From an uncultured Bacilli bacterium (GTDB lineage: Bacteria > Bacillota_I > Bacilli_A > RF39 > UBA660): DNA of 33,067 bases. Location of the stretch: the NCBI GenBank assembly GCA_947586205.1, contig CANPXO010000009.1:1-33067 (forward strand), read 5' to 3'. This document shows positions 2,767 through 3,641 of the stretch, piece after piece (positions within the stretch are counted from its first letter, which is position 1; every line of letters starts with the position of its first letter). Position numbers and translations under genes: made by a program. The notes under the pieces are model-generated. The model had not been told where the DNA came from and searched no databases. It saw nothing but the letters and a program-made list of their open reading frames with translations.

Positions 2767-2788
2767 AAATTTGTTACAAGTTGTAATT

Positions 2789-2894
2789 GACTGCATTGTG
2801 AAGAGTTATTCGAGGAACATATAAGTCAGTCTAAATTATGATGTTATGAATAGCATTGTGAAGAACTTGTTTCGAGGAACATATAAGTCTATTC
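2789..2894 (+). repeat. Two-copy direct repeat within the small RNA
   Basis: The units at 2789-2831 and 2848-2894 share 5' and 3' blocks of 11 and 18 bases that are identical, and differ in the loop and closing stems. Two copies with unequal interiors do not fit a CRISPR array. Confidence 0.85.
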
Positions 2895-2902
2895 GTTGTT
2901 TT

Positions 2903-2929
2903 AAGGAACTCTATTATAGGGTTTCTTTT
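2903..2929 (+). terminator. Terminator of the tandem small RNA
   Basis: An 11-bp stem (AAGGAACTCTA with TAGGGTTTCTT, two G-T pairs) with a three-base loop, followed by T residues. It defines the 3' end of the small RNA. Confidence 0.65.
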
Positions 2930-3125: not shown

Positions 3126-3641
3126 ATGAAAGTTATATTTTTAGATAAAGATGGAGTTTTAAATAGTAAAAATTATTTAATGAAAGAAAAACAGATAAGA
3201 AATACCTTTAGTAAAATTTTAAGAACAGAAGAAGATAAGATCCGTTATGAAATGTTTTCTGTAAATCCAAAATGTCTTCATTGTTTAAAAGATATCATTT
3301 TAGAAACTGAGGCTTTCGTTGTTCTTACGAATACCGATCGTTTTAATGTATACTTTCAAAGACTTTTAGAAATATGTAAAATTCCGATTTATGGAGTGAC
3401 TCCTTATTTAGGAAATAAAAGAAATTTAGAAATTGATGCTTTCTTAAATGAACATTCAGAAATTACGGATTATATTATTTTAGATGATGAAGAAATAACT
3501 TTTTCAAAAGAACAAAAGAAACATTTAATTCAAACTGATTCTTATTTAGAAGGTAATGGTTTAAAGAAGCAAAATGTGGAAGAAGCTATTTCTTATCTTA
3601 ATGGAATGCAAAGAAAAAAGAGCTTTCGCCCTTTAGAATAA
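3126..3641 (+). CDS. HAD-domain protein (type linked to RNA-repair HADs)
   Basis: A 171-residue protein. Motif I is IFLDKDGVLNS (D7, D9), motif II the Thr/Asn in VVLTNTDR near residue 70, then KRNLEIDAFLNEH and motif IV IILDDEE near residue 121. This order resembles the compact HAD domain Pfam describes in Swiss Army Knife RNA-repair proteins, which often reads KRGEEI...WL...YVILDD. The usual SSSWR after motif II is replaced by TNTDR, so activity may differ. GGTGA precedes the ATG. It converges on rseP and overlaps its 3' end by nine bases, so the two transcripts are partly antisense. Fold is fairly sure; substrate unknown. Confidence 0.65.
   Translation: MKVIFLDKDGVLNSKNYLMKEKQIRNTFSKILRTEEDKIRYEMFSVNPKCLHCLKDIILETEAFVVLTNTDRFNVYFQRLLEICKIPIYGVTPYLGNKRNLEIDAFLNEHSEITDYIILDDEEITFSKEQKKHLIQTDSYLEGNGLKKQNVEEAISYLNGMQRKKSFRPLE

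Follow-up and report, generated by a model that had tools for sequence, protein, structure and literature searches.

MazF-class toxins are known as partners of protein antitoxins. ToxIN, CptIN and TenpIN, by comparison, are type III toxin-antitoxin systems (PMC5086642, PMC4627078), and for ToxIN the order of promoter, RNA, terminator and toxin gene has been proven (PMC5086642). The RCd22-AbiF system of Clostridioides difficile belongs to a phage lysis module; its RNA, which has two copies of a motif and ends at a terminator, precedes the toxin gene and has been proven to bind the toxin and to neutralise it in trans (PMC12373285). Antitoxin-like RNA units also occur on phage PhiTE, whose pseudo-ToxI has no toxin of its own (PMC3475682). 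The element described here lies in a 33,067-nucleotide stretch of DNA from an uncultured Bacilli bacterium (hereafter, the window) and quite probably, in our judgement, provides the RNA component of a type III-like toxin-antitoxin system in which the toxin has the MazF/PemK fold. Its features are as follows.

2738–2766, + strand: sigma-70-type promoter TTGACA-17-TATAAT, matching the consensus at 12/12 positions (TTGACA at 2738–2743, 17-nt spacer, TATAAT at 2761–2766)
2780–2787, + strand: 5′ strand of stem P0 (GTTGTAAT), partner of 2835–2842, from own-locus duplex energies
2788–2832, + strand: unit 1, with closing stem P1 (GACTG 2789–2793 / CAGTC 2827–2831), inner stem P3 and internal loop CAUUGUGAA / GAGGAACAUAUAAGU; 63.8 bits with covariance model R2
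2833–2847, + strand: linker, in which 2835–2842 (ATTATGAT) is the 3′ strand of P0
2848–2894, + strand: unit 2, with closing stem P1 (GAATAG 2848–2853 / CTATTC 2889–2894), inner stem P3 and internal loop as in unit 1; 68.9 bits with R2
2903–2932, + strand: intrinsic terminator, with an 11-pair hairpin at 2903–2927 (terminator scan)

An earlier note on this DNA had described a stand-alone small RNA with a consensus promoter, no ORF, two units with identical interior blocks, co-varying closing stems and a terminator. The promoter, which is also present in the sister species (G050), and the terminator were found as described, and the transcript is expected from the promoter position to start near 2773. 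Both interior blocks of the 45–47-nt units indeed occur twice, CATTGTGAAGA at 2794–2804 and 2854–2864 and TTCGAGGAACATATAAGT at 2809–2826 and 2871–2888, and the closing stems, when aligned from the loop, differ by compensatory changes in exactly three of the five pairs (UA/AU, CG/UA, GC/AU), as had been counted. The statement on ORFs needs qualification: short ORFs do overlap the RNA region (e.g. 2846–2992, 48 aa), and none of them is common to the homologous loci. As to the surroundings, a 71-aa helix-turn-helix (HTH) protein is encoded upstream at 2489–2704; its family has six copies in the genome of the window and homologues in 16 of the 37 genomes of the genus. This protein was set aside: its family is a multi-copy one in the genus, and other RNA loci do not share it. 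Two HAD-like genes are located at 3126–3641 and 97–582, the first a clear HAD_SAK_2 match (E 4.7e-19) and the second a weak one.

The family was as unrecognised as the earlier note had stated: a search of the window and ten relatives against Rfam 15, including the abiF RNA, returned only tRNAs at the gathering threshold, and a permissive search (E ≤ 10) of the window region gave no credible match for the units. Because DNA similarity revealed only two clear copies in relatives (G006 and G018, 84% identity), covariance models were needed, and two were built, R1 on 25 units and R2 on 55 units. An exact-pattern scan of the genome collection yielded further copies, the genuine ones nearly all from uncultured Bacilli of rabbit or deer gut. 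Thirteen pattern matches in unrelated genomes, mostly inside coding sequences (L031–L034, L036, L037, L040, L041, L043, L044, L048, L049 and L051), were dropped as apparent chance occurrences, as which we also regard the viral pattern matches L059–L061 and a weak model match within a coding region (L092). In the genus, R1 detected units in 4 of 37 genomes, and in the family in 24 of 386. With R2, units were found in 41 of the 385 genomes of an order sample (about 10%) and 5 of the 395 of a class sample, every one belonging to the family of the window; in the class sample the RNA was not found outside it. The models thus recovered what the earlier note had proposed to look for, namely homologues with kept pairing, at E values of 1e-7 to 1e-17. 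Distinct two-unit loci number 46, with a unit pitch of mostly 57–63 nt, a near-identical core, and differing closing stems and linkers. Some genomes hold two or three such loci (G530 on contigs C52, C73 and C78; G434 on C9 and C46), and G530 has both toxin-bearing and toxin-free copies.

Each unit folds into the closing stem P1 (six pairs plus C7–G41 across a bulge), a short UGUG/CAUA helix and the inner stem P3. Over the 55 units, the covariation score of the stems was 0.355, against 0.175 for shuffles and at most 0.084 with the partners slid; the stems outscored every shuffle, and double changes occurred in six of the seven P1 pairs and in three P3 pairs. These results bear out the claim of a selected RNA structure and, together with the homologues recovered by the covariance models, show that the units of the window are not chance matches. 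The UGUG/CAUA helix receives hardly any covariation support, and in divergent units some of its positions are mismatched. Almost no variation is seen in the loops CAUUGUGAA and GAGGAACAUAUNAGU; GAGGA, which had been placed next to the closing stem, is actually part of the internal loop and adjoins the inner hairpin. Stem P0, formed by the 5′ flank and the linker, has a stronger duplex energy with the strands of its own locus than with those of swapped loci (0/5000 permutations), whereas the same swap test revealed no comparable stem in the flanks of unit 2 (433/5000). No pseudoknot was recognised, and covariation supports only the nested stems P1, P3 and P0. Since the single-sequence fold is unremarkable (z −1.2, with unit 2 misfolded), the structural evidence is the covariation.

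Downstream of the RNA, 27 of the 46 two-unit loci have a MazF-like match, which in L138 and L142 is of a divergent type; contig ends cut two other loci (L147 and L149), and 17 are without a toxin. Only some genomes thus have the RNA as the stand-alone element that had been claimed; in relatives it precedes a MazF-like toxin gene as its leader partner. The toxin ORF is mostly 121–138 aa long and starts mostly 52–63 nt past unit 2, after the terminator and a ribosome-binding site; in relatives, a hairpin with a U-tract and then the ribosome-binding site separate the RNA from the toxin gene, and in G006 and G018 a 121-aa gene starts 57 nt after unit 2. Almost all of the aligned toxins (24/25) matched PF02452 PemK (L070, 39.6 bits against a cut-off of 23.1), while PF13958 ToxN was matched by 11 of the 25 at E ≤ 0.01; the ToxN score, 20.6 bits, was below the curated cut-off of 25. 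The predicted toxin structure (mean pLDDT 88) resembles MazF (Foldseek E 1e-5; VIA Z 13.8, rmsd 2.3 over 103 residues). A CptN chain was absent among the sequence matches and the listed structure matches; that neither ToxN nor CptN structures are among the best structural matches says little, because that list is filled by MazF and CcdB.

The motif PLTSPKxKHF is invariant across the 25 aligned toxins, and the invariant histidine 23 aligns, in a weak alignment, with an arginine of M. tuberculosis MazF-mt1 that we take to be catalytic in MazF. Where the other toxins invariably have the S of PLTSPK, the G018 copy (L003:255–617) has I, and it may for this reason be inactive. Two other PemK-type proteins accompany the units: an N-terminally extended form (L142, and L138 behind a gap) and, at L080, a different PemK gene that follows a Panacea antitoxin and has a single unit behind it. 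No toxin homologues were found in the plasmid and phage collections. Toxin-linked loci (e.g. L035, L070 and L077) also contain a possible operator, an inverted repeat of the type AAATCAAA...TTTGATTT that lies about 60–90 nt before unit 1 and overlaps the −35 region; no such repeat is present at the window promoter, where the −35 is the consensus instead.

The strongest point for the linkage of RNA and toxin is the reciprocal search: among the 386 genomes of the family, toxin homologues occur in 13, and 13/13 are at RNA loci. One of these pairs, that of G291, is split between two contigs: C21 ends with the RNA, and C56 begins with the toxin, which is followed by another unit. The neighbourhoods vary between loci, many being near tRNA genes, and the 27 that were compared have no ORF in common besides the toxin; a protein antitoxin is therefore unlikely, L080 with its Panacea antitoxin being the exception. 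Distances among RNAs and among toxins are correlated (Mantel r 0.67, 0/2000 permutations), which is weak evidence because adjacent genes are co-inherited anyway. Moreover, the core carries G instead of A in every unit of six loci belonging to one toxin clade (support 100/100), giving GAGGGAC, GATGGAC and the like against GAGGAAC in the others, and the third unit of L134, located behind the toxin, also has this clade-specific G. Since the switch is a single event on the toxin tree, it is suggestive of RNA–toxin contact rather than proof of it.

Units are not confined to the position ahead of the toxin. A phage contig (L201, IMG/VR) carries two units, the toxin and a third unit in its lysis region, flanked on one side by an endolysin gene with a holin and on the other by an HNH gene. 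A third unit behind the toxin is likewise present in L078, L134, L150 and L151, in these four bacterial loci 22–41 nt past the toxin stop codon, and has its own terminator in all five cases; through this unit the toxin may bind the mRNA that encodes it, or the unit may serve as a separate decoy. Single units (L086, L088, L090, L091, L055 and L080) lie 0–58 nt after a stop codon and immediately 5′ of a terminator, the genes ahead of them being, for example, gatB, a BRO-N gene, a prolyl-tRNA synthetase gene and the Panacea–PemK pair. Those of L055 and L080 have prophage-like surroundings without the toxin of the two-unit loci; the predicted fold of a 156-aa neighbour in L055 (pLDDT 38) was too poor for use.

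The window copy is one of about 17 toxin-free orphans: no toxin gene follows its RNA, and no toxin homologue was found in the genome assembly, which is about 92% complete. Orphan units are as well preserved as toxin-linked ones (P1 pairing 0.995 against 0.991; core 0.954 against 0.956, with the four units of L147 and L149 counted among the orphans). The sister species G050 has an orphan at the same site, differing by substitutions in the inner hairpin, linker, P0 and one variable position, and its terminator has been replaced. In two more distant species, in which the HTH gene is 66% identical, neither the RNA nor the tRNA is found beside this gene.

Since relatives and a phage place the RNA directly before a MazF-like toxin gene, it is most likely an antidote. 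In complete loci, a single promoter would drive the two-hairpin RNA, and the terminator would then limit read-through into the toxin gene. The RNA would bind the toxin, presumably an RNase, through the conserved internal loops (CAUUGUGAA / GAGG[A/G]ACAUAUNAGU) and block it, possibly with each protomer of a MazF dimer taking up one unit. The window has no toxin gene at the locus, nor has the genome assembly; the RNA would have been kept there and would act in trans as a protection from copies of the module that enter the cell (anti-addiction). Judged from its strong promoter, both stems and the intact core, the window RNA probably still works in this way, which is the likeliest reading of its preservation. 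Speaking against the antidote reading are the single units behind genes that have nothing to do with toxins, such as gatB and a prolyl-tRNA synthetase gene, and the differences from solved type III antitoxins described below.

The alternative with the most weight, albeit a less likely one in our view, is that a toxin-antitoxin module was lost, perhaps recently, and that the window copy is what remains of it, no longer functional and with its decay pending. Apparent decayed toxin starts do stand behind intact RNAs in L120 and L123, the terminator is lost in G050, and the comparison at the window site is one between close relatives only. Against decay, the orphans as a group match the toxin-linked units in pairing and core, the differences between the window and G050 within the units fall only in the variable loop or at variable positions, and the window promoter is a perfect consensus.

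The RNA might instead be a cis-acting leader, in which tandem sensor domains before the terminator control transcription of the toxin gene, in the manner of a riboswitch or an attenuator fed by the toxin, without neutralisation in trans. We regard this as improbable, although the RNA is always upstream of the terminator that precedes the toxin, and in many loci the core GAGGAAC can pair with the 3′ arm of the terminator, GUUCCUU (in the window, 2867–2894 with 2903–2932), so that this pairing could serve as an antiterminator. About 17 orphans have no gene to control and yet equal the toxin-linked copies in structure and core, and units also occur behind the toxin gene. Own-locus core–terminator pairing was slightly better than swapped pairing in toxin-linked loci (112/5000) but inconsistent over all loci (737/5000); with swap support this weak, attenuation by the core through terminator pairing was set aside. 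Control in cis and neutralisation in trans could coexist, as proposed for RCd22 (PMC12373285). Least probable is a general small RNA with the toxin gene as a passenger, its function being to sequester an RNA-binding protein of the host or to base-pair with mRNAs. The purine-rich internal loops and the single units placed before terminators behind ordinary genes such as gatB would suit it, but the toxins invariably found at the RNA, the near-constant spacing and a core that tracks the toxin subfamily would not, and the sporadic presence in the genus (4/37 genomes) is a poor fit to a housekeeping regulator. The earlier note had considered a decoy for an RNA-binding protein or a base-pairing regulator; the latter found no support, and the former holds up well, with the MazF-like toxin rather than a general regulator as its most likely target, because the RNA is the leader partner of that gene in relatives.

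Taking the RNA as an antidote, the loci share with ToxIN, CptIN and TenpIN one promoter, an RNA with units that repeat at least in their near-identical core, an intrinsic terminator, a small toxin of MazF/Kid-like fold, the apparent lack of a protein antitoxin, and an association with phages and mobile sites; this layout agrees with how type III systems are recognised (PMC5086642). They differ in that both the sequence and the best structural match identify the toxin as MazF/PemK, the antitoxin consists of only two hairpin units of 42–48 nt with differing closing stems and linkers, orphan RNAs are many, and no pseudoknot was recognised in the units, unlike in solved type III antitoxins. Because the ToxN score is below the cut-off and no pseudoknot was recognised, we class the module as type III-like and do not assign it to ToxIN, CptIN or TenpIN. 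By analogy, the closest layout is that of RCd22-AbiF, with which it has in common two motif copies, a SigA-type promoter, a terminator before the toxin gene and the phage lysis module; in contrast, AbiF is a HEPN-type toxin related to Cas13 and not MazF, and the RNAs are unrelated in sequence and structure, no match to the abiF RNA (RF03085) being present here. With type II MazEF and PemIK the module shares the toxin family and fold, but here no mazE-like gene is adjacent, the conserved partner is an RNA, and an invariant histidine appears to occupy the position of the MazF catalytic arginine. The single units in the prophage-like L055 and L080 recall PhiTE pseudo-ToxI (PMC3475682), and counter-defence is a candidate role for them.

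A broader reading, which we put forward tentatively and at somewhat less than even probability, is that at least one lineage of MazF-class toxins has come under a two-hairpin, non-pseudoknot RNA, and that toxin-free copies are kept as antidotes on the chromosome and as decoys on phages. With the orphan copies, anti-addiction by an RNA antitoxin becomes testable, and specificity could be probed simply through the core base, which changes with the toxin subfamily. If the antidote reading is true, the element would represent an RNA family not described before and one more type III-like lineage, linking type II systems (MazF) to type III systems (RNA), and would be relevant to the question of how toxins exchange a protein antitoxin for an RNA or the reverse.
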